A DNA stretch of 64,000 nucleotides from Pseudanabaena sp. PCC 7367 (GTDB taxonomy: Bacteria; Cyanobacteriota; Cyanobacteriia; Pseudanabaenales; Pseudanabaenaceae). Shown here one piece after another: positions 8,443-40,168 of the stretch. The notes under the pieces are model-generated. The model had not been told where the DNA came from. It was given only the letters and a program-made list of their open reading frames with translations, and did no database searches. Position 1 is the first letter of the stretch; each line of letters begins with the position of its first letter. The stretch spans positions 62,001 through 126,000 of the forward strand of contig NC_019690.1 of assembly GCF_000317065.1 (NCBI RefSeq). The letters run 5' to 3'. Made by a program: the position numbers and the translations under genes.

Positions 8443-10155
8443 TTAGTCACCAAAATCAATCCGCCAGATACCAGCTGCTACATTAGCCAGTTGCTTCTGA
8501 CGCGACTCGATTTTTTGCTCATCCCAGGTTTCATAATGCTCAGCAATTGCCCTGGTAATCCGAAAGTCACTCTGTGCATAGACATCTCGCTTAGCAGCAT
8601 ATTCTTGATTACCAACTTCACGATTGCGAGCCGTTTCCAGAGGGGTCATATTGCCCAAGCGATAGATTAAGCGGTCTTGTTTTAGCTCTTCAATATATGC
8701 CCATGCTTCAGACGGACTTTCAGGCAAGATATGCTCCAAGTTGTAGGTCGCACTTTCAAATTCAAATGCTTGCCCTGATCGCTGTTTCTCAATTTCAAAC
8801 AGGATGTAACGCGCCACTGTCTTGTTACGGCTGTAGGTAGTGCGGAGCTCCTTCTCAGCAAACGCTCCTTTAAATTGAGTATCGTCTGGATATACATCCC
8901 GTAATGCAGCCATGACCTGTTGATAGCTGCTGTAGATACCATCAGATAACTTCCAGGCAATATCGTTATAGAGGCGCTCTTGCTCATGGGTTTGCAAGCT
9001 ACAGATCACGTTATACCGAAATGAAATAACGGCCACAGCTTTCAAAATGCGGGTAAATATCTGGCGATCACGGTCGAAAAATTGTTGATGGCAGGCCAAA
9101 AGCATGGCTAGGGGCTGACGTACGCTAAACATTCGCAGTTGCTTTAAGGCTTGTTTCTCGTCTGTTTGCCAACTGGCATCCTGGGGGTCACGCAGGGCAG
9201 CATAGACAGCAGCACAATGATCCAGGTTACGCACCAGGACAAAAGCATGTTCACGGGTAGTTATACGCCGCCGAATCGTTTTGAACAGCTCAGACTTACG
9301 CACCAGCTTATTGCAGCTATTCCAAAAGATGCGCAGGAATTCAGGGAAGCTCTCACTCCCTAGTAGACCGACAATCCGCTCCCACTGCTCTTCCAGAGCC
9401 TTCATTTCGGTTTCGTGGGTGTTTGCAGTGCCAATTAGCGAGAACAGATAGTTTTTAAGCAAATCGGTGGCAGAAAGGCGTACACCTCTGGCATTGAGGG
9501 TTTCAAACACTTTGAAGGCGTTTAATTCGTCTGTTACCGTGATGACGGTAAAAAATAGTTTATCTACCAGGGAATCAATAAATGCCGCAAAATTCTGCCC
9601 ACTATTAGAATACTTACCAAGTCTTGACTTCAGACGCTCTTTAAACCAGATAAAGGCTTTGCGGAGTTGGTGTTCAGATGCGTTAAGCCCCCGGCCAGGT
9701 ATTTGCGCCAAAGGGACAAGGTAGGTTTGATAAAAGCGATTATTATGCCGGTTTAGCTCTAACTTGGAACGTGGCACCAGGCTGACTGGATCAACATAGC
9801 CAATGTAGCTATTTTGCAATTGCTCTTTACGCAGAATATTCCTGTCAGCATCCAAATCAGCAGCAACTAAATCCTGCAAGTAGGACAGACCAGCCAAGAT
9901 CATGATACTGATCGTGGTCATTCGTTGCTGACCATCGATGATATCAAAGCGTTTGTTATCGGATGATTGCAGCACAAGATATCCCATATAATGGGCGGGC
10001 TCGCCATCATCTGCAAAAAGACCAATGATATCTTGCCAGAGGTCATCCCATTCATCCTCACCCCATGAGTAGTCTCGCTGAAAGGGAGGTACATGGTAAG
10101 TTAATCCATTACCGAGCAGCTGACGAAAGGTAGAATTGTAGGTGTTAAAGTTCAT
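8443..10155 (-). CDS. DUF262/DUF1524 GmrSD-like nuclease
   Basis: A 570-residue protein. The N-terminal DUF262 (ParB-like) domain carries [14 protein letters not shown] (about 23-36) and the nucleotide-binding DGQQRMTT (about 74-81). The C-terminal DUF1524 domain is HNH-like, with LEHILPES (about 471-478) and a later [18 protein letters not shown]. This domain pair is that of GmrS and GmrD, the type IV restriction enzyme cutting modified phage DNA; many single-chain relatives sit in defence islands. Length and motifs look intact. It is a single gene with no obvious partner. Specificity for modified DNA here is inference. Confidence 0.85.
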
Positions 10156-21338: not shown

Positions 21339-23477
21339 CTAAATTGACAATAATGGGCTTGGTTGGCCATGATAAGACGCAAAAACTTGTTTCTTTGCTC
21401 TAGTAGCTGCAACATGAAGTAGACTACGCTCTCCACTTATAAAGTGCTGTCTTGCGGTTTCATCAGCGCAGTGGTTCAGACCATTCTGAAGAGGCAATAC
21501 TTCAAAATTTAGATTTGGTAGAAAAACGTAATTGAATTGTAGCCCCTTGACACGATGCATGGTACCGAGTCTAACTCCATATTCAAAGGGATTGTCAGGT
21601 TGATCACGGTGAATACGTTTAGTAGGTATCTCTTTTTCATTGAGGAATGCTTCAAATTTTTCCATTAAAGTGTTGGTTCGAAAGGCCAGGCAGACACCAG
21701 CAAGGCTATTATCTTCAGTTTTGAGTTCATGTAAAGTTTGTTGTATAAATTTTATTTCATCATCAAGTTTTTCAAATCCTCGGATTACAGGAAGTTCACC
21801 GTGCATGAGTGAGCGATAATCATTAAGTGAATCGGTTCCACCGTCAAGATCGTCAAAGGTAACGCCCGCCAAAATAGCGGTGGCCCAGCGACGCGTTTCG
21901 TCAGTTGTTCGGTAATTGAGGCGAAGTTTTTTCGAGCGTCCGCGAATATCTATCCCACATTGACTGAGAGTTACAAGCTTACCGTAGATCCTCTGGTGGG
22001 CATCACCTACTATAAACATATCGTTTGGTTTAGGTTTACCAGCAATTGCTCGAAGTAAGGTGAATGCTGCAGGCCCCATATCCTGTGCTTCATCTACTAT
22101 GACTGCTTTATAAGGTAGAGTTTCATCCCCTTTAGCTTCAATAATTTTGGCAGCATCGCGGAATGCTTCATCCGGCTCGCGTAGGTTTTGTTCTCTGAGG
22201 AGATTACGGTATTCTTCTAATACTGGCCAAATCTCCTGGCGTTTCTGTCGGCTTAGGCGAGTTCCCCTGCCAACTCTGCGAGCCTTAAGATAGTCTCTCA
22301 AAGTTTGACAATCCTGCGCTAAAACTACATCTTGCCATTCTTCTTGATAAAAATTTAAAGAGAGACCTAAATCCACTGGAGCAAGAGTATACGCATCCTC
22401 CCATATCTCATGAGTTTTTTGATCATAAGCTATTTCTATCTCAATACCTTCTTGTCGAAAGAATTCTGATACCCAAGCATCCAAATTTACTACTCTGATA
22501 CGTTGCATAAGTTTGGGGGGGCAAATAGTTTTTAGGTTTGCTTCAATATCAACAGCTAGATTACGGGTAAAAGTAGTAAATAGAATGCGATCATTTGGAT
22601 CAACAAAGCTTTTCTGAACAAGCCACTTAGCCCGATGCATTGCGACAACTGTTTTGCCAGTACCAGCTCCACCTAGAACTCTGATGGCTCCACTCCAATT
22701 ACGTTCAACTAGTTTTCGTTGAGATGGGTGGAGAAAAACCCGCCATTTTTCTAGAGGAGCTGCCAACATTTCCTCTAACTCATTATCATCAGTGATGACC
22801 ATGAATCGACTGAGACTGTCAGCATTTTCCAGAGCTTTTTCAAAGTCATCGGGATTCACTTGCTGTACATCCCTAGTTTTTTCAAGCTCGCGAAAGACAG
22901 CATCTAATTCATATCCAGCAGCTAAGAGGATTAGGGCATCGCTGGCTTCGCTAGGAAGGTGAGGGAGCAATTTATCAACGTCATCATCTGTAATTACTTG
23001 TCGTACTGCTGGAAGTAAAATTTCAGGTACCCCTAACTGCATTAAATGCTTGTCTTTAATTTTTTGAAAACGACTATTTTTCTTATTATGGTTTGCCTGG
23101 ATTAATTGCTCTGTAGTTGATTTTGCTTGTTCAACATCAATGATTTGTAGCGCACCAGATACTTCATTAACCATGCAGGTTTTACGCTGTGCCCAGTCAT
23201 ATGCTTTATCATGATGATCAACCCACAAAAGAATATATACATTTCCCTTCTCAGGCTTAAGGACAATTGCACGGTAAGTTTGATCAATACGTGCAGATTT
23301 CATTCGCTTATCTTTGCCATTCCGGATTGACTCATAGTTGATGCCAGGACTAGTAGGAGATTGGCGAAACCGATTAATGAACTCAGACACTTTACTTTGA
23401 ATAGACCTGGGCAAGCGGCTGTAAGCATCAAAGAAATCATCGGATATGGCGAGGCGGAAAGTATTTTGTAGAGACAT
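21339..23477 (-). CDS. RelE-like domain fused to UvrD/Rep superfamily 1 helicase
   Basis: A 712-residue protein. Residues about 1-100 look like a RelE/ParE-type fold (FRLAISDDFFDAYSRLPRSI, KSARIDQTYRAIVLKPEKG, ILLWVDHHDKAYDWA). Residues about 240-705 are a UvrD-type helicase: Walker A GGAGTGKTVVAMH (about 268), VDEAQDMGP (about 460), VGDAHQRIYG, LNYRTTDETRRWA, GTMHRVKGLQF (about 639) and LLHVAATRAKKQ (about 684). It begins 12 bp after the large helicase gene, so it is the last gene of the four-gene operon. It stands where class 1 DISARM would carry other genes such as drmC. Whether the RelE-like part cleaves RNA or serves as a docking domain is unknown. Confidence 0.85.
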   Translation of the reverse strand: MSLQNTFRLAISDDFFDAYSRLPRSIQSKVSEFINRFRQSPTSPGINYESIRNGKDKRMKSARIDQTYRAIVLKPEKGNVYILLWVDHHDKAYDWAQRKTCMVNEVSGALQIIDVEQAKSTTEQLIQANHNKKNSRFQKIKDKHLMQLGVPEILLPAVRQVITDDDVDKLLPHLPSEASDALILLAAGYELDAVFRELEKTRDVQQVNPDDFEKALENADSLSRFMVITDDNELEEMLAAPLEKWRVFLHPSQRKLVERNWSGAIRVLGGAGTGKTVVAMHRAKWLVQKSFVDPNDRILFTTFTRNLAVDIEANLKTICPPKLMQRIRVVNLDAWVSEFFRQEGIEIEIAYDQKTHEIWEDAYTLAPVDLGLSLNFYQEEWQDVVLAQDCQTLRDYLKARRVGRGTRLSRQKRQEIWPVLEEYRNLLREQNLREPDEAFRDAAKIIEAKGDETLPYKAVIVDEAQDMGPAAFTLLRAIAGKPKPNDMFIVGDAHQRIYGKLVTLSQCGIDIRGRSKKLRLNYRTTDETRRWATAILAGVTFDDLDGGTDSLNDYRSLMHGELPVIRGFEKLDDEIKFIQQTLHELKTEDNSLAGVCLAFRTNTLMEKFEAFLNEKEIPTKRIHRDQPDNPFEYGVRLGTMHRVKGLQFNYVFLPNLNFEVLPLQNGLNHCADETARQHFISGERSLLHVAATRAKKQVFASYHGQPSPLLSI

Positions 23478-23489
23478 GATTCCTTCTCC

Positions 23490-26400
23490 TTACAGCTTTT
23501 CCCTGATTGCATTCATTGATTGCAAAAAATCATCAACGGTTACTGTGAACCATCCTGCCTGCCTAAAGATATCTTGATCATTAGAGTTAGCAAAAATAGC
23601 AACTTTAGCACTTCGCCAAGCAATTTCTGCTTCAGCAATCACTTTCCCACACTTGTCTTCTAACTCGTAACCAGCTTCGGGTAAGGGCCAGTCTTCTTCA
23701 GCCATACGTTTTACAAGTGGTAGTAATTTATCTTCTAGAACCAGAGCTTTTACGTTAGCCCATTGCTCACTTTTTAATGTCTGATCAGTCTGAGCAAGCG
23801 GTGGTTCAGCTGGGGGTAGCTGTTCTCCTTTGCTTATTGCTGCTGTGGTTATTGCGTAGACATGGGGTAAGAATTGATAAAGATTTAATAGTCGTAAGAC
23901 CTCATTCCAGCTTTGTTTAAGTTGAGAAGATTCTGTTTGTGTAATGTCATCAAGTTCCAGTAAGACTAGGCTACCTGAGGGGTCATGTGTTTTATGACGT
24001 GTTAAATCAGCTGCGCTCAATATTTTCAGGTTATCAGAGATTTTGACCTCTCCATGCAGCATTCTTTCTGGTGGTTCCCAAGTATTGAGGGCAGTTTTAC
24101 CAAGAATCGTCTCAATCTGTGCGATCCATGTTTGCCATAGGCTTTGATCCTGAAATGAGTGATCATCTGCCTGAGCGGTCGTTCTTAGTAAACCCCAATT
24201 TTGCCATATTATCTCATCTGGTTCGGCCAGATAATGCATTAGCCATTGAAAACTACTTTTGGTTTCAAGATCAGTAAGGCTATCACACTGATATCGCTTG
24301 TAAATTTGGGGTCGATGATTTTGAAACTGTTTATTGAGATGAAAGTTAAGCCCATCTAGCTTATTGTTACTTTGATGATGAGTTTGGTCTGATTCGATTT
24401 CTTGACTAATATCTTCCCAGGTTAGAGACCAACACCAAAATTGATTGCTGCGTAGAATGGAGATACGCTGTTTAAAATCCTGCCAGATCCTATCTTTATG
24501 GTATTCCCAGCCATCAGTAAAAATAGCTATCGGACGACTTTTGGTGCTATTTTTTGCAGGTTTTATCAAGAAATCTGCTCGAGAGGGTTCATGTACATTA
24601 TCCGCTTGACCAATTGAGACCTGGGTTTCAATTGTCCATGCTTGATCTCCCAGTTTGAGATAATAGCCAGCTCTACCATTGAATATTTCTTTACGTAAGA
24701 TAGCCACATGGCCAGAAGCAGATCTGTAACGTCGAACAACTTCAATGAATTTGCGCTCTAGTTCACTTTCAAAGTTGCTGTTGAGTTTTATTGAAGAAAG
24801 ACCCTGAGAAGTTTCCTTTAATTGGGACCAGTTTTTCATGATTGAGTTCAATAGGCTTTGCGCTTTGCTGCGACTGGTTTTATCATGATCAAAGCTATTT
24901 CGATATGCATAGAGACAACGGTAGCAACCATCTTTACCCTGTTCTTTACAACTACATGCGCGTACTACCTTAAGCGCACCTTCAAAGATATCTCGCATTT
25001 GTTCAGGTTCACTGATCAGCTGACGCAGATAGCCAGTTCCTCCTGGCACAGTATCGTAAAGGTATAAAAATGATTTTCGCAATTTAGAGTTTGGTTGAGG
25101 TTCTCCACTTATAGTGGTGTGAAGGTGTCCTACCTGGCCACCAAACTTTCTCTTTAGCCCCAATTGCAGAGCAGCGATAAAGGAATGTAATCCCTCAGGC
25201 GTCATGAAGTCATCATCAGGCATTAGAAATCGAATAGACTCAGACTCAAATTCACGGTAAAGATACAGTACCTCTAGTGCTTTAGCCTGGTCAGGTTTAT
25301 CTCGCCACTGGCAATTAATTGTGTGATTGTTGTGCTTATCACTGCGATGATTTAACATCACCTTGCCACAGCTACCACAGACTTGGAATCCCTGGGATTT
25401 ATATTTATGTCCAGCGATGGCAACAGTATCTCCTGTAGACTGCGATTCGCCCAGGTTTATCTCACGAAAACTAGTACGACTAATGTACTCAAATCCAAAT
25501 GGGAAATCTCTATCCTTTATAAGAAAGGTTTTTTCTCGGTAGTCGGGTGAGAAATCAACTAGTAAATGGCGTTGAAAAAAAGCTGTGCTGCGATCCTCGC
25601 TGTCATCGCCAAATCGACTATCTTTATCTGATGTAGTAGCCATCACCTGCCTCAATCGCAGCATTCGTTTTACTTGTCCTTGGTCACTCCACATTGGATC
25701 GCCACAACGTGGGCAAGATTTATGCTGTGCAATAGTTTCAATTGTTCGAATTGAATAATTACAGCTACGACAAATGCGCCAATCTTCAGGTTCTGATAGT
25801 CTCAAGTCAATTTGGTCGATTTTAACCCGTCGCCCTTCGGCGTAGAAAATCCCACTAGGCACTAATTCTCGAATTGCCAGATTCCCGGGGCGTTCGTAGG
25901 TAATAGGATAGGTGTCGTATCTATTACCACTGGATTGTTCAGTTTCTGGCTTTTTACGCCACAGGATAGACTTTAACGTTACTCCTGCTTCAGGAAAAGC
26001 ATAATTAGGTAATAGCCCTTCATCGGTGAAAAAGTTTAAAGTACGTTTCTGGTTTAAGTCCTTCATCAACGCCTGAAAAGCTGCCTTTTCGCGGTGCAGC
26101 TCATCTATACGCTCTTTATCTTGTATTGCTTCTGGGGCGGCTTTAAGCTTCTTGAGCTTATCTCTAATATTTCTAATCTGGCTACTTAAACGGGTTCGTT
26201 CCTTTCGAATACCTTCTAACCGATCCAGAATGCGCCAACTCAAGCCGCCCTCATACTGCTCACCCTCTTCCATAAACATATGTAGTGAATTACGGGTAAG
26301 ACTCTTTGTATTTTCTGTCGTAAAAAGTGCTAAAAAAGTATCCAGGAGTTGTCCCTGATATTCTCTGATATAGGTCAACCAGTTATAGGGGAAAGACTTA

Positions 26401-29400
26401 TGATCCTTTTTTTCAATTGAGTTAAGCACATTGTTCAATAAGGGCGCAAATTCCTGACTACTAATGCCTGTAGCGATCCAACTATCCAAACAAAAAGCTG
26501 TAAGCTGTCTTTGTAAGATAGCGGATGCATCTAAATAGCAGCCTGCCGCTTCAACCCTACCTGCGAGCATCTCTGGTGGTTCAGCATAGAAAAATAAGTC
26601 ATGAGTTCTTCCATTAGCAACTATGCCTACTAGTGCATTGCCATCTCTACGGCCAGCGCGACCAATTCTTTGTTGGAAATTAGCTGGACCAGGGGGTACG
26701 GAACTGAGTATTACAGTTGATAGATCTCCTATATCTATTCCCATTTCAAGGGTCGCAGTGGCAGAAATAAGGTTAGGATCACAGCGGCGTGCTCCAGCAA
26801 TAAACTGTTTTTCTAAAGTCTCTCTGTTGCTGCGAGTTAATAACCCAGTATGTTCTGCAGCCACAATCCGCCGCACTTCACCTTTTTGATAAATTTCCCG
26901 GTAGTAGGCTAAACCTGTTCGTGTGTCTGGTTGGTAATGTCCATTGCATCCAGATGAAAGGCAGCACATCCCTATAAAAATACGTTTTTCGATCTCACTG
27001 GTGGTGATTTGATGGCTGCAGCGATCACACGCCAATACATGTCCCTTCGTCTGTACAGACAAAGTGGACATAGGAATACCCCAAGCTTTACCTCCACTAC
27101 ATTTGTTGACTTGCAACAAGCCATATTCCACCAAGGCATCTAGGGTTGCATGGATGATTTCAACCAATTGCTCTTTGAGTAACAAGCTAGTAGGAGCAAA
27201 GACACGTTTACACCATTCCTCAGTCCAGCTATCTCGTTTATCAGGACGAATCACTGTCTCAAAGCTATCTGCCTTAGCCAAAGCACTGACAAAGAAAATC
27301 GGCTTAGGAATAGATGGCCCAATACGCGGCATGAAAGCATACTTTTGCCACAGGAAGGTGTTGCCGCCTGAAGCAATATATTTATCTGTGGCTGGCTGAA
27401 GAATACCACCTCGCATCCTAAGATGGTGAAGCAAACCCAGCAAAAACTCTTGGACTTTTTCTGTGGTTAATTGACGTAGAGCTTCAATCTCATTTGTAAG
27501 TTTAAAATGCAAAGCACTCGCTGCTTGAGCTATTTGTTCTGGAGCAAAGTTTGTTGAGCATACGCCGCTTCGCTCAAGTGATGGCCCGACAGCTGCACGA
27601 TGACCAAACTGGTTAACGATTTCCCAGGTTAGTCTTTCATTAAGAAGATTTAGAAGTCTTTCTTTTTTATCTACAGGCAGTTCATTATCATCACTGTTTA
27701 AAAAATTGTCCCATTCTTGCAGCCAGGCTAAATCTGTTGGTAAAAAAGTTGCTACATAATCAGCAGCGGGGTTAAGCCGCTTCTGCCAATAACCAGGAAA
27801 TTTATCTACCAAAGATTCGAGTGATAGACCGTCAGTCTCTGAAGCGATCGTCCGAGCAATCGCAGTACGCAATGTGGTGCGGTAGGTACGGGCACTATAG
27901 AAACCTGCTCTGTGTGCAGCGTCTTGGACTGAATCAGAAAAAGCTAATAATTTCTTATTTGGGTTGTAAGGAGTGGTGTATAGCACCCCAATCATTGCAC
28001 TGGTAAGGCTAGCAGCCTGGGCACCAATAATTGTTAAACCATTTTTGCTCCCACAATAGGGACAGTCATGGTTACTGACCAGTCGCTTCTGACCATTACT
28101 AGACCTCTCATAGTTTGTATCTGGTAACTCAACCCGAATCAATGATTCGTGACCACAACTTGTACAGAAATTAGCTTTTGAGCTATTCAAAGTTAAGCAT
28201 TGGCCGCAAAGCTGCTTAGCCATGGGGTTGTGATGATCGCAAGGAAAAGCAAAAGTAACAAGAGGATTGAAACTGAAAAACGCCTGGTAGAAGCCTCTGA
28301 GGTTATCTGACTCTAGCCGATCGGCTCCCTGGCTTGTTTTTACTCCACCCCATCCAGTAGCACCGCAATCCCGACAGTGCAGTACTGGTAGATTATTTGG
28401 CATTTTTCCTAGGCTAGATTCAGGCGCAGTATTTGCCAAATCATCCGAAAACAAGAGATTTGGTTCTTGCTCTATACTGGCAACCATACGTCGCAGCTCA
28501 CGAAACCAGTAGTTCAATCGCAGATTTACCCAGGGTAAAATCAACTCATTGCCATTGGGCTTTTCAACACTACGGCGAGCAGTAGCGATCAGGCTGAGCA
28601 AACTATCTAGTAAAAGTTGGTGATACTCTGGAGAAGCCTGAGTTTGAATACCAACTAGTCTGCCAACATGTTCAACTAATTCAGAGTAGGTTTGAGGTGT
28701 ACTACTAAGCTTACGAAGTAGATTTTGTACAATCGGTAAGGTTTTAAGTTCTTGTCCTAGTTGCTTGCGCCAGTTTTCGTTTTGTAAATCAGGAGCATAC
28801 TCTTGAAGCCACAGCTTAACCTGCTTTTGTATATAGTCATCAGGGTTATCATAGCGATCGAAATTTAGCTCTTCAATTTGCTCAGGCTCGGGAATAGGTA
28901 GCAATTTGGTCATGAGATCTGGTTGATCGAACAAGAACTCATTGACGCTGAGGCGATCCTCCTCAATCAAAGCTCCGTCATGAAAAGGTTCATTGAATAT
29001 GGTGGTGGCATATGCCAGCATTTCCTGCTTATTACCCTCTCCACCCAGGGTGGCAGAAGTACCAACACAAGCTAGGTGATCTTTAGGGGTCTTCAGGCGA
29101 TGTTTGAGGCGACGCAACAAACAAGCAAGATCAGTACCCTGAGCGCCATCGAAGGTATGGAACTCATCAACAATGATGTAACGCAGGGTCTCTGGTAGGT
29201 TATAGCGCCAAAGTCTTTGACTATCAGGCTGGATGAGCAGGTAGTCCAGCATTTTATAGTTAGTGAGCAGAATATCCGGCGGAGCATCCCGTAGCATATG
29301 CTTATCGGTGATTACCTTATCCGGTTGCATCCGACTGGTGGGAGTCTCGTCTCGATCGCCCACATATAATCCAGCAGTTACTTTACCATTGAGGTTCGGG

Positions 29401-29855
29401 TTGTCATGGATTAACTCAGCGATCCGCTTGGACTGATCGGTTGCCAGGGCATTCATGGGATAGATCAGAATTGCTTTGATGCCATGGGCTCCAACTTGTT
29501 GACGGCAATGTTCTAGCAATGGAAGCAAAAAACATTCGGTTTTACCGGAACCTGTGCCAGTTGCGATCAGGGTTGATTGATAATACGGTGGGGTAAGGCG
29601 CTGAAAGGCTTTTTCTTGATGCAGGTGGGGATGGAAATTGAGAGGTATGTGTTTAAAAAAGTCTGCGCCTTTGTTCCCAGTGCGGAAGGGCAACCCGATC
29701 GACACATAGGGACCTTTGTAATAATTGTCGCTTTTTGCTAGAAACCGCTCCATCATGGTGTTGAAACCTGGAGTGGTGGGGCGAAAGGTGGTGCGTAGAT
29801 AGTCAGAAACGCAATTGCGAACTTGACTGGCGACGACGGAAGGGAGCATGGGCAA
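23490..29855 (-). CDS. Giant DEAD-box helicase with DUF1998 (DruE / DrmA-DrmB-like)
   Basis: A 2121-residue protein. N-terminal superfamily 2 helicase: Walker A ATGTGSGKTE (about 98-107), DEFH (231-234), GTSATLGG (about 271), and a helicase C domain ending QRIGRAGRRDGNALV (about 1065). Zinc-ribbon-like cysteine pairs occur between (CRDCGATGWGG, CGQCLTLN, CPYCGSKNG). A DUF1998/MZB region follows, with cysteines in CSCKEQGKDGCYRCLYAYRN (about 1636-1655). A later segment resembles a nuclease fold (ADFLIKPA, then IAIFTDGWEYHKD, about 1760-1785). DruE of Druantia has this helicase-plus-DUF1998 plan and size; in DISARM the two parts are separate DrmA and DrmB proteins. It is the third gene of the operon, 200 bp after the methyltransferase. 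Confidence 0.82.
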   Translation of the reverse strand: MPMLPSVVASQVRNCVSDYLRTTFRPTTPGFNTMMERFLAKSDNYYKGPYVSIGLPFRTGNKGADFFKHIPLNFHPHLHQEKAFQRLTPPYYQSTLIATGTGSGKTECFLLPLLEHCRQQVGAHGIKAILIYPMNALATDQSKRIAELIHDNPNLNGKVTAGLYVGDRDETPTSRMQPDKVITDKHMLRDAPPDILLTNYKMLDYLLIQPDSQRLWRYNLPETLRYIIVDEFHTFDGAQGTDLACLLRRLKHRLKTPKDHLACVGTSATLGGEGNKQEMLAYATTIFNEPFHDGALIEEDRLSVNEFLFDQPDLMTKLLPIPEPEQIEELNFDRYDNPDDYIQKQVKLWLQEYAPDLQNENWRKQLGQELKTLPIVQNLLRKLSSTPQTYSELVEHVGRLVGIQTQASPEYHQLLLDSLLSLIATARRSVEKPNGNELILPWVNLRLNYWFRELRRMVASIEQEPNLLFSDDLANTAPESSLGKMPNNLPVLHCRDCGATGWGGVKTSQGADRLESDNLRGFYQAFFSFNPLVTFAFPCDHHNPMAKQLCGQCLTLNSSKANFCTSCGHESLIRVELPDTNYERSSNGQKRLVSNHDCPYCGSKNGLTIIGAQAASLTSAMIGVLYTTPYNPNKKLLAFSDSVQDAAHRAGFYSARTYRTTLRTAIARTIASETDGLSLESLVDKFPGYWQKRLNPAADYVATFLPTDLAWLQEWDNFLNSDDNELPVDKKERLLNLLNERLTWEIVNQFGHRAAVGPSLERSGVCSTNFAPEQIAQAASALHFKLTNEIEALRQLTTEKVQEFLLGLLHHLRMRGGILQPATDKYIASGGNTFLWQKYAFMPRIGPSIPKPIFFVSALAKADSFETVIRPDKRDSWTEEWCKRVFAPTSLLLKEQLVEIIHATLDALVEYGLLQVNKCSGGKAWGIPMSTLSVQTKGHVLACDRCSHQITTSEIEKRIFIGMCCLSSGCNGHYQPDTRTGLAYYREIYQKGEVRRIVAAEHTGLLTRSNRETLEKQFIAGARRCDPNLISATATLEMGIDIGDLSTVILSSVPPGPANFQQRIGRAGRRDGNALVGIVANGRTHDLFFYAEPPEMLAGRVEAAGCYLDASAILQRQLTAFCLDSWIATGISSQEFAPLLNNVLNSIEKKDHKSFPYNWLTYIREYQGQLLDTFLALFTTENTKSLTRNSLHMFMEEGEQYEGGLSWRILDRLEGIRKERTRLSSQIRNIRDKLKKLKAAPEAIQDKERIDELHREKAAFQALMKDLNQKRTLNFFTDEGLLPNYAFPEAGVTLKSILWRKKPETEQSSGNRYDTYPITYERPGNLAIRELVPSGIFYAEGRRVKIDQIDLRLSEPEDWRICRSCNYSIRTIETIAQHKSCPRCGDPMWSDQGQVKRMLRLRQVMATTSDKDSRFGDDSEDRSTAFFQRHLLVDFSPDYREKTFLIKDRDFPFGFEYISRTSFREINLGESQSTGDTVAIAGHKYKSQGFQVCGSCGKVMLNHRSDKHNNHTINCQWRDKPDQAKALEVLYLYREFESESIRFLMPDDDFMTPEGLHSFIAALQLGLKRKFGGQVGHLHTTISGEPQPNSKLRKSFLYLYDTVPGGTGYLRQLISEPEQMRDIFEGALKVVRACSCKEQGKDGCYRCLYAYRNSFDHDKTSRSKAQSLLNSIMKNWSQLKETSQGLSSIKLNSNFESELERKFIEVVRRYRSASGHVAILRKEIFNGRAGYYLKLGDQAWTIETQVSIGQADNVHEPSRADFLIKPAKNSTKSRPIAIFTDGWEYHKDRIWQDFKQRISILRSNQFWCWSLTWEDISQEIESDQTHHQSNNKLDGLNFHLNKQFQNHRPQIYKRYQCDSLTDLETKSSFQWLMHYLAEPDEIIWQNWGLLRTTAQADDHSFQDQSLWQTWIAQIETILGKTALNTWEPPERMLHGEVKISDNLKILSAADLTRHKTHDPSGSLVLLELDDITQTESSQLKQSWNEVLRLLNLYQFLPHVYAITTAAISKGEQLPPAEPPLAQTDQTLKSEQWANVKALVLEDKLLPLVKRMAEEDWPLPEAGYELEDKCGKVIAEAEIAWRSAKVAIFANSNDQDIFRQAGWFTVTVDDFLQSMNAIREKL

Positions 29856-30055
29856 TTAGGTCAAGACGATCCAGAACAGCCATTTTAATTGCTGTGATCT
29901 AAGGTTAACCTAAATTATCGGTGTGGGAGCAGTTAGGCGAAAATTTTGGGTAGTATTTTTGGCTGGTAGCAATCGTTCCTGTCTCTGATTGCTACTTGGC
30001 AGAGCTTTGACCGATCGCCTAGCTTACCTATCCAGCTATTTCTGCTTAACAAATG

Positions 30056-33000
30056 TTAATTTGTGCCCAGGCGATCGAAGTGTGCCCAGGCGATCCGATA
30101 GTCGGTGACGCGATCGCACTTATCGAATGGAGCTTCATAAGCAATTGTGCGCAGGCGCTTGCCATCCTCACCCCAGCGTTCATTTTCTCGTAGTGGTACA
30201 TCAGGAGGCAGGGTATCGTCTTCGATCTCAATTTCCAGGTGTTCTACCTTTGCTTGCTCGGTTTCAGCATCATAAACATCTTCCCAGCCGATAATTTCCT
30301 TCTTGGAGTTGCCTTTGCGGGGTAGCCCCACCCCAGTCAGTCCTCTGCTAGTGGTAAATATAATCCTGCCGTTTTTATCGTAAAAGGTTTCGCGCTCGTA
30401 TTGCTGCATCACTGGGAACTGCACCCGATAGATCGTAATCAGTTCATCGAGAGTAAGCCCGATCGCCATAGCTGCCAACACATCGATCTCTACCAGTGCC
30501 TGACGACGAGCATAATCTGTTCTCAATGCCACATCTCGCTGCCAGGTGGGGCTTAAGTTGGCAAAGAAATTCTGATCAAGACGAGGATCATCGGGCTTGC
30601 TCCATCCATCTTTATTAAAGGTTGAATCAAAACATTCTACCCAGAGCTCGGTGTAATGGTTGGTAAGGCAGTTAAGCGCTATGGTACGAAGTATAATTTC
30701 TTTACTAGCTGCAGGCAGTGGTAATAATCTTAAAGTTGACTCATAAAGATCACCTTTCCCAGTTGTTTTGATATAGAAATCGTAAACAACTGAGCTGCAA
30801 AAGGCGCAAAAAGCTACCATAGCATTCTGTTCTTGGAAGGTTGTGGAAATAACAGGATGAATGTGAGCCGATTCTTTTGGAGCAATAGCAGGAATTAAAG
30901 TTCTTTCACCTGATTGACTTAGCTGTCTTCGACAAACCAATCGATAAAAGTCAGTGACAGGTAGTTGATCGCCCCAGGGGACTCTGGGTGTGCGGCGTTT
31001 GTATTCTGTGGGATCGCAATCGGGGATGTAGTTAGTGCGGGGCAGATAGCTGTCTGGTATTGCAGTGAGATCGATTACGTCGTAAGCTTTATTCGTATTG
31101 CAAATAGACCTTGGTGTTTTGCTGAATGGCATTCCAACATAAAAGTGTGGGCCAGAGAAAATTAAATTTGTTGTATCTTCTGGGAATTGAGTATCACGTC
31201 TTATAGTGCCATCTTTCTGGCTGTTTGTCTCATTCCACATTTGAAGGGCAAGGCACTGATCTTTCAAATTGTTAAGTTGTTTCTGTTGAAGGCTAAATTT
31301 TCGGATTACACCGACTAGATTTTGGGCGTGTAGAGCGGGCAATTGTGCTTCAGCAGCAGGTGTACCTTCGCTATCGTAGAGTTTTGCAAATAGATCTAAG
31401 GTATTTAAGTCAATGCTGATGATACGAGATGGATGACCTGTTGTTTCCCATTTGCCAAGCTCGTTCTTAATTCCCGGTACTTTAGAACTGCCTGACAACT
31501 CAACTGATTCAAAAACGGTTTTAGGGTTATAAAGGTTAGCAATATGTACAAAACGAACTAAACTAGAAGTCTGTTCTGACGGCTTTTGATAAATATTGAT
31601 ACTAAACTTTGTAGTGTTATGTACATCAGCAAATAGCTTGTGTTCATTATCAAACTGAAAATGTGCTTTTAAGTACTGATAAAGTGTTTTTCGGAATAAC
31701 CCTCCCTTTGGATCATCATAAACCCCCTCAGGATGCAAAAAACCAGACACCCCCGCTGGTCTAGTAAAAGTCCAGGCTTGAGGCAGGAAACACTTAAAGA
31801 GATTGGCTTTTTGTCCCTCTAACAAGTGATAATTCTGAAAAGCATTAAGAAAATTTTGCGTACCATCAGCCTCTTCAAACTCATTCAAATAGCCAGCCCA
31901 TAGCCCAGGATAGGTTGCAAACAGATCCTCACGGGTCTTGGCTAACTTACTTGCCGACAGCTTGCGCAACTCAACAATTGGGTTATAGTCACCTAGAATA
32001 TCGCCCTCTTTCCACTCCACCTTAATCCAGGGTGGATTCCCCACCATCAAATCAAACCCACCACACTCCTTGAAAATATCAGCAAACTCCAGTTCCCAGT
32101 GGAAAAAGCGATGGCGATCTGCCAACTGCTCCACAATCTGCAATCTTGGTGTAAGCAGCATTAATTTGTTGAGATCGACATAACCCCAATCCTGTAAGAA
32201 CTGTTTGCCCAAATCCTCATCCTGGGTTTCCGGGAACATTTGCATTTGCCCAGTTGATGGTGCCAGCATCTCTGTCTCGCCCAGGATCGCACCTATCTCC
32301 TGCAAAAAAGCCGATCGACTCGGTAAGCTGTCTGCTTCCGTAATTGGCCAGAACCACAACGCACACCAGTAATCCATCACCAGCTTCAACCGCCGATATG
32401 CTCCAGCATTTGTCACTCCTGCCGACAACTTTTCCTGCTGATAAATTTTGTCCTTCATCTCCAGTGGTGAAGCATCTGTCAGACCAATAGACTCAGTCTG
32501 TCCCCAAACCAAAAGCGGGTCAGTTGTGCGCGATCGAATTCTCGCCAACTCCTGTGCATAGTTAACCCACAATTGATGGATACGTTGACTCAGACGCACC
32601 GCATAATCTGCCTGCTCAGGAGTTAGTTCCGTTTTACAAAAATCCTTCTGCCACTCTTTAATTTTGTCGATCGCCTCCGGCTCCATCTCCTTAATCACCT
32701 TATCGGTGTAATCAGCCATCCCCGGATCACCCAGCAGGAAATGAAAGATCCCATTAGCAGGGATGTCCTGATCAAGGGGTACACGTTCTGGGTCGAAAGT
32801 ATGCCATAGCTTTGCGCCACGCTTCAATTTAGTCACATGATTGTGCCCATACACCTGCCTTCGGGCACCGATCAACGAATTGCCACAATGTAACTGCAAT
32901 CCAAACCAGGGGACAAACACATCCCCATCTCGATAAACCGTATAGGGATTGCCGCGATCGTCGAATTGCTCAACTGGGATGCGATCGCGGTAAATGCAAT

Positions 33001-34969
33001 TCAACCATAGTGAGACTTCTGCCAGCTCCATTGCGATCGGGTTTTTGTCAATGCCAAACACATTACGATCCGCCAGCAGCATTTTGACTTTCTGCTTCTC
33101 GATCGTGATTTGCTCATGGGGGATGCGATCGTTTAGTTCATTCTGCTTACGTTCCAGATAAGCCTCAGCTAATTGATCGATTACCTCATTTAAAAAAGCT
33201 GCACTGCCCATCGCAGGTTCACACACCTTCAGCGATAGGATTTCATCAGCAGTTTTATCTTTTAGTAACTCCTTGAGTGCATACTTAACCAGACACTCAG
33301 TCAATGATTGTGGCGTATAGTAGCTAGCACTTTTTTGGCGATCTCGTCCTGCCAGGCGAAACAAAAATTTGCCCTTAGGATGCATCCTGGGCTTTTTGCC
33401 TGTCTCTAGATCTTTAACAAACTCATTGGATTTAAATTCTTCTAATCGCTCCTTTGGTACAAAATAACCCACTTCAAGATCGCTACGTTCTTCAGGATCT
33501 TTTGCTGGTTTAACCTCATATAAATCTTCCTCCGCTAGAAATGCAGAAAGACTCAGTAAACCTTCATATACCTCACCAAGCTGATTAACTCCCAGTTGGG
33601 CATAGCTGATCCTGCCCCGGCGCTGCTTCTTACTCTCTCGAGATAAGGACATTAGCTCCAATACTTTTCGCATTACCACATTGCGAAACTTTACCCGCTC
33701 CAACATAGTTGTTCGTGCTGGATCAAATAAGTGACTCTTAAGAGCGGGCAATCGAAATGTATTGGCGATCAAGCTAGAGTCTATCTCTGACGAGTCAGAT
33801 AGCAAATTCCGCTGCACAGACTTTTGAGCAGGATAGCCTTCCCATAGCAACTTAAATAATCTACGAATGGAGCGATCGATAAAATAGCTGTTATTATCAG
33901 CCTCAGTTATTAGTTCTACTTGCTCTAGATCCCGCAGCGACTCCAGACTATAACCTTCCCGATACACATCTGATCCCATCGGGATATAGCCCAGTTCTGG
34001 ACGTGCTTCGATATAAAAGACAAATAATAGGCGATACACCCAGCGCAAACACTCAATCTTGAGCTGGTTGGGGTCAATCTCTGACTCACCTTCAGCTTTT
34101 TGGTACTCTGTAGAAAAAACCCGTTCCTTACGTACCGTTTTGCGATAGTAAATTACTTCATTCCCAAGTAATTCGATCGCCTCACGCAGAGCAAATTTTA
34201 GATCCTCTGAAACGCTGTAAGCATGACGATGGCTATTTTCATCCAACTCATCGAGTAAGGTGCTACCCTCAGCGGGGCAAGTATGCTCACGGTGTAGCAG
34301 GGTTGCTGCTGCCAGCAATGAACTGGTGTCGCGTTCATCCAGTAATTCTTGTAGATCGAATCGCAATAGCCTTGAAGCAGACCACTTATGGCGATCGACC
34401 AGCACAATCTGATCAATGCTAATCAAAATCACCCAACGTGGTGGATTATCTTGAGCAAAAATCGGATCAAGCAGGTCTTCAAGTGTAGAACCTAAAATTT
34501 CTGAATCAGGGCTTGGCTTATCATCACTATCAGGAAACTGAATCAAGTCCAGATTGAGAGACAATACATCTACTGGCTCCATCGAAGTATTAAACCCCTC
34601 GATCACCCATAGTTGAGGCAAACCATTGTTTCGAGTAACCTCAGCAGCGATCGGTATTAATGTTTCATCATCTAAAGCTCTGAGTTCAGGTTGCCAGTCA
34701 TAACCAAGTATGCCCAAAACTTGTTTCAATAGCTCTTGTTGTAGAACTAGTTTCTCCTCATTTGCAGTGATACGAGATAGGCGATCTTGTAACCGAAAAT
34801 ATGGTTGGCGCAGACTTGCCAGATGCTGAGCTGGGGATTTTATCTCACTATCTTGAGCTGCTTTAGCCTTCCATTTTTTTGTTACATTTTTGAGATCCTC
34901 ATGTAGGATGGCATCAAGATAATGAGCAGAGTAAAACTCATTTTCATTGGCGATTCCAACTAGCGGCAT
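30056..34969 (-). CDS. Large N6-adenine DNA methyltransferase (DrmMI/PglX/Eco57I-like)
   Basis: A 1637-residue protein. The N-terminal 500 residues have no recognised catalytic motif. The methyltransferase core has YYTPQSLTECLVKYALKELL (about 555-575), the SAM-binding CEPAMGSAAFLNE (about 584), FGIDKNPIAMELAEVSLW, and the N6-adenine motif IV NPPWIKVEW (about 975). The C-terminal part is probably target recognition. It overlaps the helicase stop by one base (TAATG), so the two are coupled. In DISARM class 1 the order is SNF2 helicase (DrmD) then adenine methyltransferase (DrmMI), as here. It presumably marks host DNA as self. The target sequence cannot be read. Confidence 0.87.
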   Translation of the reverse strand: MPLVGIANENEFYSAHYLDAILHEDLKNVTKKWKAKAAQDSEIKSPAQHLASLRQPYFRLQDRLSRITANEEKLVLQQELLKQVLGILGYDWQPELRALDDETLIPIAAEVTRNNGLPQLWVIEGFNTSMEPVDVLSLNLDLIQFPDSDDKPSPDSEILGSTLEDLLDPIFAQDNPPRWVILISIDQIVLVDRHKWSASRLLRFDLQELLDERDTSSLLAAATLLHREHTCPAEGSTLLDELDENSHRHAYSVSEDLKFALREAIELLGNEVIYYRKTVRKERVFSTEYQKAEGESEIDPNQLKIECLRWVYRLLFVFYIEARPELGYIPMGSDVYREGYSLESLRDLEQVELITEADNNSYFIDRSIRRLFKLLWEGYPAQKSVQRNLLSDSSEIDSSLIANTFRLPALKSHLFDPARTTMLERVKFRNVVMRKVLELMSLSRESKKQRRGRISYAQLGVNQLGEVYEGLLSLSAFLAEEDLYEVKPAKDPEERSDLEVGYFVPKERLEEFKSNEFVKDLETGKKPRMHPKGKFLFRLAGRDRQKSASYYTPQSLTECLVKYALKELLKDKTADEILSLKVCEPAMGSAAFLNEVIDQLAEAYLERKQNELNDRIPHEQITIEKQKVKMLLADRNVFGIDKNPIAMELAEVSLWLNCIYRDRIPVEQFDDRGNPYTVYRDGDVFVPWFGLQLHCGNSLIGARRQVYGHNHVTKLKRGAKLWHTFDPERVPLDQDIPANGIFHFLLGDPGMADYTDKVIKEMEPEAIDKIKEWQKDFCKTELTPEQADYAVRLSQRIHQLWVNYAQELARIRSRTTDPLLVWGQTESIGLTDASPLEMKDKIYQQEKLSAGVTNAGAYRRLKLVMDYWCALWFWPITEADSLPSRSAFLQEIGAILGETEMLAPSTGQMQMFPETQDEDLGKQFLQDWGYVDLNKLMLLTPRLQIVEQLADRHRFFHWELEFADIFKECGGFDLMVGNPPWIKVEWKEGDILGDYNPIVELRKLSASKLAKTREDLFATYPGLWAGYLNEFEEADGTQNFLNAFQNYHLLEGQKANLFKCFLPQAWTFTRPAGVSGFLHPEGVYDDPKGGLFRKTLYQYLKAHFQFDNEHKLFADVHNTTKFSINIYQKPSEQTSSLVRFVHIANLYNPKTVFESVELSGSSKVPGIKNELGKWETTGHPSRIISIDLNTLDLFAKLYDSEGTPAAEAQLPALHAQNLVGVIRKFSLQQKQLNNLKDQCLALQMWNETNSQKDGTIRRDTQFPEDTTNLIFSGPHFYVGMPFSKTPRSICNTNKAYDVIDLTAIPDSYLPRTNYIPDCDPTEYKRRTPRVPWGDQLPVTDFYRLVCRRQLSQSGERTLIPAIAPKESAHIHPVISTTFQEQNAMVAFCAFCSSVVYDFYIKTTGKGDLYESTLRLLPLPAASKEIILRTIALNCLTNHYTELWVECFDSTFNKDGWSKPDDPRLDQNFFANLSPTWQRDVALRTDYARRQALVEIDVLAAMAIGLTLDELITIYRVQFPVMQQYERETFYDKNGRIIFTTSRGLTGVGLPRKGNSKKEIIGWEDVYDAETEQAKVEHLEIEIEDDTLPPDVPLRENERWGEDGKRLRTIAYEAPFDKCDRVTDYRIAWAHFDRLGTN

Positions 34970-37848
34970 TAGTTATCTCCTATTAGTACAGCAACTAGCT
35001 TGATAAATGGTTCAGTTTCAGTGGTCATGGATAACTCCACCCAATCTCGATAATCCTTGAAAATTTTATCAATCCTACCTAGCTCCCCTATGCGACGTTG
35101 CTGCTGAATCCGACTCAGTTGAGAATTACGATCAAAGCTTTGCTCTATCTTGTCCATATGCGATTGCTGTAACTTATCCAATCGCTCCTTTTGCTCCTTT
35201 AATTTAGTGGATAAGTTTGCATTAAATAATTTTTGCTCATCATTCAGGTAAGCCCGTGCTTTTGCGATTGCCTCATTCCTCAACGGAAGCAAGTGATTAA
35301 TGGATATTTGTCCTGGGTTAGGTACTTGCTTCTTGCCTAGCTGAGTCCGCTCAACCGTATCATCAAAAGGCTCAATTCTCATGAACTCGCCTCCAGAGAA
35401 GACAGAAGAAATCCACCGGGAAAGTATTGATGTACCGCGTCGGTTTGGGAAATTACCAAACAATATAAATACCGATTCATTAACTGACAAATCTGGTAAC
35501 TTGAGCACCGGTGCTTGATGTCTGCCGAACCTGAAAAGACATCGATCTGTTAGCCACTCAAGAAAGGGATGAAGTTCCCATAAGTATTGTTGTGCTGGCC
35601 AACTAGACTCTTCACGCCTTGCCTTCTCCATGGCCTGCATTACAGCATGTGGATTTTCCGTTAAATGCAATAATGATTTGTTTCCCGGTAAAATTTCCTT
35701 TGGCAATCTTTGATAGCGTTGCTCAAGCTCTACAGGTAGCTGACACTCAATAAATGGCTCTGCTTCATTAATATTAAGGTTTGATGGTATCTGTTCAAGT
35801 GTCTGCAGAGCAGTGGTTGCATATTCAAAGTTGCTTGCAAAAAGAGTTGGCATCATGCCAAGCTCAGCTTTTGGATTGATTTTGCCATTACTGCTATTTG
35901 CATCTTCTACCAAATCAGGATTAGCAAAAAGAGCAAATATATCAATTTCCTCTGCAGCATGAGCAACATTGCTATCTAGTGTCCTGGAAAAATCTTCTGC
36001 TGAGTTACCAGACTCGATAATATTAGCTGTATATGTTTCTTCTGAGTCTGAATCAAACACTCCCATGAAAACTGATGGGTCACCAATATTTTTAATAGCC
36101 TGCTCATCCTTCTCAAGTAATACCTTGATAATCCGTTCTACCTCATCCATACGCTCTAATTTAGAGCGGGTAAGCATATAACGGATTTCTGGTTGTCGAG
36201 TTTGGCCGTAGCGATCAATTCTTCCATTACGTTGTTGTAATGTCATTAATGACCAGGGAATATCAAAATGAATCAATTTATGGCAGAGATAGTGTAAGTT
36301 CAAACCCTCTGAGGCTACCTCAGTCGCAATTAATATACGTACTTGCTCCTTTTCCTGGCCGAAAGATTCTACAATCTGGTTCTGATCCGTGTCAGACATT
36401 CCACCATCCAGAGAGATTACTGCTTCAGGTTTTAGCTTTAAATCTTTTGCTAGCTGAGCTTGTAAAAACTTTAATGTTTCCAGTCGCCCGGTGAAAATTA
36501 CCAACCGATCTTTAGGATCTTTGCCGTTCCAACCGAAGTCAGTTTTAATTAGTTTGAGCAGTAACTGATATTTTGTAAATGATGTGGCATCTATCTGTTC
36601 TAAAACTAGTTTCAGAGCATTTAGCAGGTGTATATCATGGAGATCCGCAGGACTAACATCTTTATCTTTGCCGAGCCGTCTTAGCCGATTACCAACTGTT
36701 TCCAGACATGCTGCTGGGCTAGATAGCATTGCCTTGAGCAGTGTGGTTTTAAATAGCTGCCCTGCTTGCCGATGACTATCAATACGTTCAAAATTCAAAT
36801 CATTAAGCTGCTCAAAGGCTCTTTCTTCGTAGGAAGAAGCCATCGCTTCGATAGAAGATACATTTCGTTCAGGTATGTGCTGTTTTAGATCCTGTAGAAC
36901 GTCCTTCTTGAAGCGTCGCACATACAAATCACGAATATCATCTTGAGTATAGTCAGATTCATTAGCGATTGCTGTCGGATCAAGCATATTCATGAGACTT
37001 GCAAAACTCTCAGGCCTGCCATCATGAGGTGTCGCAGATAGCAATATTAATGTGTCTGAGCGCGTTGAGAGACGATTTGCCAGTTTTGCACGCTGAGAAG
37101 CTGATTGCCCCCGTCCCCTTTTAGCGACATTATGAGCTTCATCAATAATTATGATATCCCAATAAGCTTTCTCCAGATAACTACGATACTCACGGTCTTG
37201 TTTGAGTGTATCGACCGAAATGATACTGCGATCATAATAGTGAAATGGATTGTGATTACCTGGGATATTAGTACGTACGCGTTGGATTGTCGTAGAGTCA
37301 AGTTTAACAAGAGGAATTGTAAACCTACTCCAAAACTCCTTCTGAAACTGTACCATCATCGATTTAGTAGTAACTACTAATATTCTTCGGCCCAGTCCTC
37401 TCCTTATTAGCTCAGATACCAGGATTCCACATTCAAGTGTTTTGCCTAGACCTACAGCATCAGCAATAAGGATACGTTGCCGTGGCATTGATAAAGCTTT
37501 ATAGGACGGCCATAGTTGATAATCTAAAATATCCATTGCCGCTCGCTGACCTTGATAAATACGACCATCATCAGGTGCAGTTTGCTTTAAGTGAGCCTCT
37601 ATAAATAGCAGGCTATGTTTATACCCCGAAGAATTATCATTAACAAGCTTAGTCTCTTCAGGAAGCAACACTTGAAGATCACTTTCTAATTCCTCAACAA
37701 AGCGAGCAGTTTTTCCCTTGATAAACTCAGAAACGCCAATAGCATCAATAATAAAACTACCATCCGAAGCTATAGTAGTAGACCTCACCAACCACTCAGC
37801 ATCACGGCATAATATTCTTGCTCCTGGTGCAATTGTGCCTGCCTGCAA
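34969..37848 (-). CDS. SNF2-family helicase, DrmD-like
   Basis: A 959-residue superfamily 2 helicase of SNF2/RapA type. Motif I is ADAVGLGKTLECGILVSELI (about 127-146), motif II IIIIDEAHNVAKRG (about 234), motif III LLSATPHDGRPESF, and motifs V-VI ATEVASEGLNLHYL and QQRNGRIDRYGQ (about 542-553). It is the first gene of the four-gene minus-strand operon. DrmD, the first gene of class 1 DISARM, has the same domain and size. A plain RapA-like helicase of another restriction system is the alternative; gene order and the following adenine methyltransferase favour the DISARM link. Confidence 0.85.
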   Translation of the reverse strand: MQAGTIAPGARILCRDAEWLVRSTTIASDGSFIIDAIGVSEFIKGKTARFVEELESDLQVLLPEETKLVNDNSSGYKHSLLFIEAHLKQTAPDDGRIYQGQRAAMDILDYQLWPSYKALSMPRQRILIADAVGLGKTLECGILVSELIRRGLGRRILVVTTKSMMVQFQKEFWSRFTIPLVKLDSTTIQRVRTNIPGNHNPFHYYDRSIISVDTLKQDREYRSYLEKAYWDIIIIDEAHNVAKRGRGQSASQRAKLANRLSTRSDTLILLSATPHDGRPESFASLMNMLDPTAIANESDYTQDDIRDLYVRRFKKDVLQDLKQHIPERNVSSIEAMASSYEERAFEQLNDLNFERIDSHRQAGQLFKTTLLKAMLSSPAACLETVGNRLRRLGKDKDVSPADLHDIHLLNALKLVLEQIDATSFTKYQLLLKLIKTDFGWNGKDPKDRLVIFTGRLETLKFLQAQLAKDLKLKPEAVISLDGGMSDTDQNQIVESFGQEKEQVRILIATEVASEGLNLHYLCHKLIHFDIPWSLMTLQQRNGRIDRYGQTRQPEIRYMLTRSKLERMDEVERIIKVLLEKDEQAIKNIGDPSVFMGVFDSDSEETYTANIIESGNSAEDFSRTLDSNVAHAAEEIDIFALFANPDLVEDANSSNGKINPKAELGMMPTLFASNFEYATTALQTLEQIPSNLNINEAEPFIECQLPVELEQRYQRLPKEILPGNKSLLHLTENPHAVMQAMEKARREESSWPAQQYLWELHPFLEWLTDRCLFRFGRHQAPVLKLPDLSVNESVFILFGNFPNRRGTSILSRWISSVFSGGEFMRIEPFDDTVERTQLGKKQVPNPGQISINHLLPLRNEAIAKARAYLNDEQKLFNANLSTKLKEQKERLDKLQQSHMDKIEQSFDRNSQLSRIQQQRRIGELGRIDKIFKDYRDWVELSMTTETEPFIKLVAVLIGDN

Positions 37849-38882: not shown

Positions 38883-40139
38883 TCAGAATTTCCACATAAC
38901 TTCACCATCTCTGCTGATGAATCCAGAAAAATTATCATATTGGTTATCAGAGTAATACCCTTCCATATCTACTCTTGCTAGTCCCCCTTTAAACCCTTCC
39001 ACATAGCTAAATTTTGGCTCGATTACCCAGTTACCTTCTTTATCAATAAAACCAATTGAACTATTGATACCCCCTGCAGAATTATTAACTGCTATAGAGG
39101 CTAGCCCTTCTGAAAAAGAGTCTATGGATTCAATATCAAAATTATCATAGCTGGGTTCTATTACGACATCTCCAGATTTATCTATATAAACCCACTTATG
39201 CTCGAACTTATTACCAACTGCAACTGCTGCAAGTCCATCAGAGAAACTTTTAGCCCAGACAAATTGAGGCGAAATAACCATTTCTCCATCTTTATTGATA
39301 AAACCAAAAACACTACGATTGGCGTAATCATATCCCTCTCTTTTGATTCGAACAGGTGCTAAACCTTCAGAAAAATTGCCAACATCAATATACTGGGGCT
39401 CAACTACAAAATTGCCTGATTTATCAATAAATCCCCACCTATAGTGTCTTCCTCTAGCTACCTGTACCGCAGCTATGCCTTCTGAGAAATCATTAGCAAA
39501 ACCAAATTGAATATCAATAGCAACGTTTCCCTGAGTATCAATAAAACCAACTAAATCTTCTGGAGGATCATTGATATATACTATGGCAAGGCCTTCAGAG
39601 AAAGGATACATGCCATAGTAAGTTGAATCAATTACTAATTGCCCGGTTCTATCAATAAAACCAATTTCCTCAAATGTGTTGCCTCCCGGTAGCCTAACTT
39701 TTTGTGATATGAGTGCCAGCCCATTAGAGAAGTCCAGGAAAAAATCACTTTCAAATTCATCTGGGTAATCAAATTCTGTTTCGATTTCTAATTGTCCAGT
39801 TTTATTAAGATAACCAATTTTTCCGCTATTTAATTTTACTGCTGCAAGACCTTCAGAAAATGGGCGGTCGCATAAGTACCTATCATCACAGACAATTACA
39901 AGTTCTCCCAAATTATTAATAAAACCATTACCATTTCCTCCTCTAACTAGAAATAATTCGTTTTTCTCCTCATTCTGCATGACTCTACTTCCATCTATTT
40001 CGTAGTCGCTTTTTTGGCTTTTCTTGGTAATTATTTTAGGCTGCTTTTGCGACTTAGCAAGGACCATAAAAACACCATAGCCTATAGGAAATATAGCAAA
40101 AACGCATACCAGTAATAATAACTTTGTGAGTCTTTTCAT
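38883..40139 (-). CDS. WG-repeat protein with N-terminal membrane anchor (possible immunity protein)
   Basis: A 418-residue protein. Residues about 5-28 are a hydrophobic segment (LLLLVCVFAIFPIGYGVFMV), a signal anchor. The rest is a series of WG (KWG) beta repeats, each like FSEGLA-V then GFID-K-G then VI-P-(F/Y), about eight or nine copies, evenly spaced. By topology rules the repeats would face outside the cytoplasm. The start lies 30 bp after the stop of the giant RHS protein on the same strand, the place where polymorphic toxin immunity genes usually sit. An immunity role is inference; WG repeats are binding modules found in many contexts. Confidence 0.8.
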   Translation of the reverse strand: MKRLTKLLLLVCVFAIFPIGYGVFMVLAKSQKQPKIITKKSQKSDYEIDGSRVMQNEEKNELFLVRGGNGNGFINNLGELVIVCDDRYLCDRPFSEGLAAVKLNSGKIGYLNKTGQLEIETEFDYPDEFESDFFLDFSNGLALISQKVRLPGGNTFEEIGFIDRTGQLVIDSTYYGMYPFSEGLAIVYINDPPEDLVGFIDTQGNVAIDIQFGFANDFSEGIAAVQVARGRHYRWGFIDKSGNFVVEPQYIDVGNFSEGLAPVRIKREGYDYANRSVFGFINKDGEMVISPQFVWAKSFSDGLAAVAVGNKFEHKWVYIDKSGDVVIEPSYDNFDIESIDSFSEGLASIAVNNSAGGINSSIGFIDKEGNWVIEPKFSYVEGFKGGLARVDMEGYYSDNQYDNFSGFISRDGEVMWKF

Positions 40140-40168
40140 CCTTTCTTAAGTGCAGATATAACAATGCC

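Follow-up and report, generated by a model that had tools for sequence, protein, structure and literature searches.

A divergent operon assigned to ARMADA type II on a likely plasmid of the cyanobacterium Pseudanabaena sp. PCC 7367

Gene content and layout of the locus

We analysed a stretch of 64,000 nucleotides from Pseudanabaena sp. PCC 7367 (contig NC_019690.1, positions 62,001 to 126,000 of the forward strand; hereafter the window), in which four co-directional genes occupy positions 37848-21339 of the minus strand (Table 1). Almost certainly, these genes constitute a complete operon of the anti-phage system ARMADA type II, armA-armB-armC-armD, located on a plasmid of the cyanobacterium. 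The four open reading frames had been delimited in a first-pass annotation made from the letters of the sequence, and their coordinates, strand and spacing were confirmed: armA and armB overlap by 1 bp, while 200 bp separate armB from armC and 12 bp separate armC from armD. As listed, the armC frame runs from a TTG codon (23490-29855, 2121 amino acids). However, judging from the alignment to its E. coli counterpart, translation appears to start at an ATG six bases inside this frame, at 29849, and the armB-armC gap is therefore given as 206 bp below. The TTG start of armA is preceded by GGGAG, six bases upstream. None of the four frames is interrupted or shortened, and every motif residue that was checked is intact. 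The four genes form a single defence operon.

Table 1. Features of the operon and of its surroundings, in window coordinates (aa, amino acids)
Feature	Position	Strand	Description
armA	34969..37848	-	BrxHII/RapA-like SNF2 helicase, 959 aa, TTG start; Pfam SNF2-rel_dom and Helicase_C
armB	30056..34969	-	PglX/YeeA-like adenine-N6 methyltransferase, 1637 aa; Pfam Eco57I/N6_Mtase
armB-armC junction	29850..30055		about 206 bp, no strand, non-coding here; recurrent insertion slot in relatives
armC	23490..29849	-	YprA-family SF2 helicase, 2119 aa from ATG at 29849; DEAD, Helicase_C, MZB (=DUF1998)
armD	21339..23477	-	RelE-fold domain (about 1-115) fused to GajB-like UvrD helicase, 712 aa
Ubiquitin-like conjugation set	4085-6339		Multi-ubiquitin/E2 protein adjoining ThiF-JAB (E1/deubiquitinase-like) protein
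GmrSD-type type IV restriction enzyme	8443-10155		Full-length match to PADLOC HEC-06 / Orf5
Giant protein	38883-50125		3318 residues; RHS, FG-GAP and Ig-like repeats; a WG-repeat protein of 418 residues follows
AbiEi-AbiEii toxin-antitoxin pair	54901-56594		4-bp overlap
RepA gene	58914-59822
MobA/MobL relaxase gene	62798-64000

Comparison with ARMADA type II of E. coli

ARMADA type II was published in September 2025 in a study of YprA-family helicases (Bell et al. 2025, PMC12458937), where it is defined by a BrxHII-like ArmA, a PglX-like ArmB, a YprA-like ArmC and a RelE-GajB-like ArmD in strict order. In the strain tested, E. coli NCTC 12900, the system defends against phages and all four genes are needed; the defence is direct and non-abortive, with infected cells surviving (PMC12458937). 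Motifs that matter for this defence are NPPW in ArmB and, in ArmA, ArmC and ArmD, those of the ATPase; the residues mutated in that work were ArmA K136 and D236, ArmB G605 and N971, ArmC K110 and D234, and ArmD K266 and D454 (PMC12458937). While the first-pass annotation knew of no named system with exactly these genes, gene content, order and domain layout of the locus are an exact match to ARMADA type II, an outcome that the annotation itself had named as refuting its reading; its surmise that variants near DISARM might already have been described was correct. The locus is a known system, new solely as a divergent cyanobacterial plasmid copy.

The E. coli locus in NZ_CP042903 was used as reference. 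It adjoins a Druantia-like helicase gene and lies near tRNA-Phe and an integrase, matching the published description (PMC12458937). Since a DNA-level search in E. coli covered 3% of the query, the comparison was done on proteins. In global alignments of essentially full length, identity was 48% for ArmA, 50% for ArmB, 39% for ArmC and 47% for ArmD. The eight residues mutated in the published work fall on the expected motifs of the E. coli proteins, and all eight are conserved in the window: K136 and D236 of ArmA (which has intact Walker A and B motifs and matches its counterpart over the whole length), G588 of the GxG motif (in CEPAMG) and N978 of NPPW in ArmB, K103 and D228 of ArmC (105 and 230 when counted from the TTG), and Walker A K275 and Walker B D462 of ArmD. 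Genes, order, strand and domains are identical to those of ARMADA type II in E. coli NCTC 12900 and ATCC 8739, and protein sizes are alike. The copies differ in their setting, a cyanobacterial plasmid with other defence genes as neighbours versus an enterobacterial satellite-like island flanked by Druantia III and Zorya II, as well as in the 206-bp armB-armC gap and in sequence (39-50% protein identity).

The phylogeny of ArmC agrees with this assignment. In a FastTree phylogeny of 95 ArmC-like proteins, with no named type I reference among them, the window ArmC falls inside an 82-member clade that includes E. coli ArmC (support 100) and represents the type II clade, and within a 14-member cyanobacterial clade (support 100) where Leptolyngbya-type sequences are nearest, at no more than 64% identity. 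Long branches outside the type II clade lead to E. coli DruE III and to cyanobacterial YprA proteins of 1760-1943 aa. The alignment of ArmC to its E. coli type II counterpart also extends from end to end, extra tail domains included. In the architecture of ArmC, the YprA-family SF2 helicase is joined by zinc motifs, an OB-CON-DUF1998 canopy and, towards the C-terminus, a putative Vsr-like nuclease and tail domains that are probably degenerate. Among the cysteines, the four of DUF1998 are kept in 78/78 ArmC homologues, other CxxC pairs being widely conserved. Downstream of DUF1998, residues E1698, Q1743, D1759, D1779 and G1780 are invariant across homologues and H1784 is nearly always present, a motif as would be expected of a Vsr-like PD-(D/E)xK nuclease; Pfam REase_MTES_1575 gave weak matches in 7/52 members. 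The full-length alignment with E. coli ArmC further indicates that BrxA-like and MarR-like domains are likely inserted in the protein.

Several points weigh against the assignment. i) The window ArmC is just 39% identical to the E. coli protein of the tested type, and activity of ARMADA type II in this host is a prediction from sequence. ii) The main text of the ARMADA paper names cyanobacteria for type I alone (PMC12458937), and type II membership here therefore rests on the tree and on gene content. iii) The armB-armC gap of 206 bp, where E. coli has a 1-nucleotide overlap, may mean that armC and armD are not co-transcribed with armA and armB. iv) Foldseek with the whole 465-residue ArmC tail returned TnsA only, as a weak match (E 0.1). 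As for iv), a multi-domain query probably hides the Vsr fold; the Vsr assignment therefore rests on the sequence motifs and on PMC12458937.

Conservation of the four-gene set

For comparison, 80 homologous loci with ArmC were fetched from named genomes. In 58/63 loci with at least 2 kb downstream of armC, armD is the next gene; where at least 9.5 kb was available upstream of armC, armB is present in 42/46 loci and armA in 39/46. The four families thus co-occur above chance, which the first-pass annotation had proposed to examine. They are found in identical order in many phyla, and the set is therefore old and stable. Among 145 relatives of the host, three genomes contain a full type II ArmC, in each case with an ArmD of about 70% identity adjacent to it. 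At least 80% of ArmC was matched in 26 plasmid records, with three cyanobacterial ones among the best matches. One locus (L075) departs from the strict order of ARMADA type II, its armA-armB pair being on the other strand from armC-armD.

Alternative interpretations

The presence of IS21, Tn3-type transposase and resolvase genes nearby, together with an armB-armC gap longer than that of E. coli, could be taken as signs that the copy has decayed or lost its activity, left on a plasmid amid transposons. Given four open, full-length frames and the intact state of all motif residues checked, we consider this quite unlikely.

Still less probable is an ARMADA type I operon in reversed cyanobacterial order that has acquired an ArmD. 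Type I shares ArmA-, ArmB- and ArmC-type proteins with the locus, and its reversed order, A-B-C, is known from many cyanobacteria (PMC12458937); moreover, UvrD helicases were found near YprA proteins of about 1800-1900 residues in eight cyanobacterial loci (L120, L121, L124-L127, L132 and L134). However, type I as a rule has no RelE-GajB protein, and the window ArmC is placed in a different subclade, that of type II, with support of 100. It follows the E. coli type II protein through the extra tail domains, while its similarity to the shorter cyanobacterial YprA proteins is only partial (25-35%). The ArmC tree largely refutes type I, which was rejected by tree and ArmC length; as the tree holds no named type I reference, this exclusion rests on gene content, length and tree together.

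The view of the first-pass annotation, a new hybrid arisen by recent recombination between DISARM and Druantia, draws on real PADLOC scores (ArmA to DrmD, ArmB to DrmMI, ArmC to DruE models) but is refuted because the four genes are widely conserved as a set, with order kept across many phyla, and can be practically dismissed. The PADLOC library dates from 2023, before ARMADA was described, and its names are therefore the nearest older ones: DrmD for ArmA, REase_MTase_IIG/DrmMI for ArmB (full-length match to PDLC03614, 886 bits), DruE for ArmC and GajB for ArmD. The claim that two genes are shared with class 1 DISARM holds for ArmA and ArmB. For the third gene, the likeness to Druantia stands, while the suggested DrmA-DrmB fusion does not, the protein falling with ArmC of ARMADA type II and far from DruE of E. 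coli Druantia III.

Class 1 DISARM itself (drmD, drmMI, drmA, drmB, drmC) resembles the locus in its YprA-type helicase and DUF1998 module, and was rejected: helicase and DUF1998 reside in a single open reading frame in place of separate drmA and drmB, DrmC is missing, ArmC is closer to Druantia DruE models, and a RelE-UvrD protein is added. PADLOC and Pfam scans detected no PLD domain in the four proteins. Nor does the fourth gene replace DrmC, as had been supposed: it is ArmC that carries the putative nuclease, at its C-terminus, and ArmD comes in addition. Like the locus, Druantia encodes a YprA helicase of very large size with DUF1998 and a nuclease region at its C-terminus (DruE), but in ArmC the putative nuclease is Vsr-like, not PLD-like, and ArmA, ArmB and ArmD stand alongside; Druantia was rejected because a long distance separates ArmC from E. 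coli DruE III in the tree. No match to DruH or DruA-D was obtained among nine neighbouring proteins scanned, one cytosine methylase scoring to DruM. BREX-related/Hma systems and the PADLOC REase_MTase_IIG group contain related helicase and methyltransferase families and have other genes embedded in core operons, whereas the window operon has neither PglZ nor a DUF499 ATPase; ArmB owes its type IIG label to a nomenclature older than ARMADA.

ArmD, a RelE-UvrD fusion

The RelE-UvrD fusion recognised in the first-pass annotation was upheld. Pfam called the UvrD domain of the window ArmD and not the RelE part. For the latter, a structural model of the first 122 residues (predicted local distance difference test score, pLDDT, 89) matched archaeal RelE, YoeB and other RelE-family toxins in Foldseek (probability 1.00, best E 2e-5; matches including 1wmi and 2a6r). 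The RelE-like active-surface positions R63, R69, H89, D90 and Y93 are kept in 55-56/58 type II homologues, which fits a RelE domain that is active or at least constrained. No antitoxin gene is adjacent to armD, and any RelE toxicity would therefore have to be curbed within the protein or the complex.

ArmD-like proteins were also encountered elsewhere. In five cyanobacterial loci (L120, L121, L124, L125 and L126), a UvrD helicase directly precedes a YprA helicase of about 1800-1900 residues; its match to ArmD covers the helicase part alone, with no RelE match, and a methyltransferase homologue is located upstream in L121 and L124-L126. These loci possibly represent ARMADA type I with an ArmD-like partner. 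In three others (L127, L132 and L134), a YprA helicase that does not belong to the type II clade has a RelE-UvrD protein in its vicinity, with 33-35% identity to ArmD; ArmD-like proteins are therefore not confined to type II.

The armB-armC junction as a probable insertion slot

Junctions longer than 500 bp were observed between armB and armC in 22/55 measured loci (L024, L025, L026, L030, L036, L037, L039, L044, L052, L053, L055, L056, L057, L063, L065, L073, L074, L081, L092, L093, L100 and L102), compared with 3/44 for armA-armB and 0/68 for armC-armD (Fisher p of 1e-4 and 1e-9, respectively, with no correction for relatedness). The cargo varies by locus (Table 2), and the hosts include cyanobacteria, Desulfobacterota, Bacillota, Betaproteobacteria and others; many of the insertions therefore look independent.

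Table 2. Cargo found in the armB-armC slot
Cargo	Loci
MkoA (1722 bits)	L093
Mokosh-like helicase-PLD protein	L037
GajA (Gabija)	L056
AbiLi/AriA/PDC-M07A-type ATPases	L036, L057, L100
GmrSD	L030
Schlafen AlbA_2 proteins	L052, L081
SIR2 protein	L102
PDC-M49A	L074
HSP70	L025
Uma2	L024, L026

From this, it seems probable that the armB-armC junction serves ARMADA type II as a dedicated internal slot for cargo, where unrelated, mostly defence-like genes insert repeatedly. The slot is empty in the window. In its 206-bp gap, we detected neither an open reading frame nor a match to a promoter or terminator, and the RNA fold is unremarkable (z -1.0); cargo remnants were sought there by comparison with related loci, with no clear match. 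In its main text, the ARMADA paper emphasises strict gene order (PMC12458937), and a phrase search of that text found no mention of inserted genes; embedded effectors are already known from BREX and related systems.

Probable plasmid setting and neighbouring genes

The window belongs to a contig of 328,634 bp, next to one of 4,557,046 bp. Because of this size difference and the presence of RepA and relaxase genes, the contig is most likely a plasmid, and the window part of a mobilisable one. There are 21 occurrences of the octamer GCGATCGC, where about 0.6 would be expected, which is typical of cyanobacteria. The surroundings of the operon are a defence and mobility region: besides the features in Table 1, Uma2 proteins, a YhcG nuclease and a C5 methylase are encoded nearby, as are the IS21 and Tn3-type transposases and the resolvase mentioned above. 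The giant RHS protein and the WG-repeat protein following it may represent a secreted polymorphic-type protein and its partner.

Proposed mechanism and implications

This analysis establishes what the parts are and how they are ordered, as well as residue conservation and the RelE fold; the division of labour among ArmA-D proposed here is perhaps somewhat better than an even guess. According to the model, ArmB would mark self by adenine methylation at a specific host motif, providing a putative methylation-based discrimination from non-self, and ArmA, an SNF2 translocase, would survey incoming DNA together with ArmB. ArmC would load onto unmodified or replicating phage DNA, unwind it with its 3'-5' SF2 motor and cut it with the C-terminal Vsr-like nuclease. 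ArmD would assist as a UvrD-type helicase, while its RelE-fold domain might cleave RNA or position the complex.

With this locus, a newly described and experimentally supported anti-phage system is extended to a cyanobacterial plasmid, and a divergent second copy becomes available for comparing which residues matter. The armB-armC slot is a testable lead and may yield new defence genes by position alone. If the slot is indeed dedicated to cargo, the ARMADA type II operon would be a chassis for layered, co-expressed immunity.
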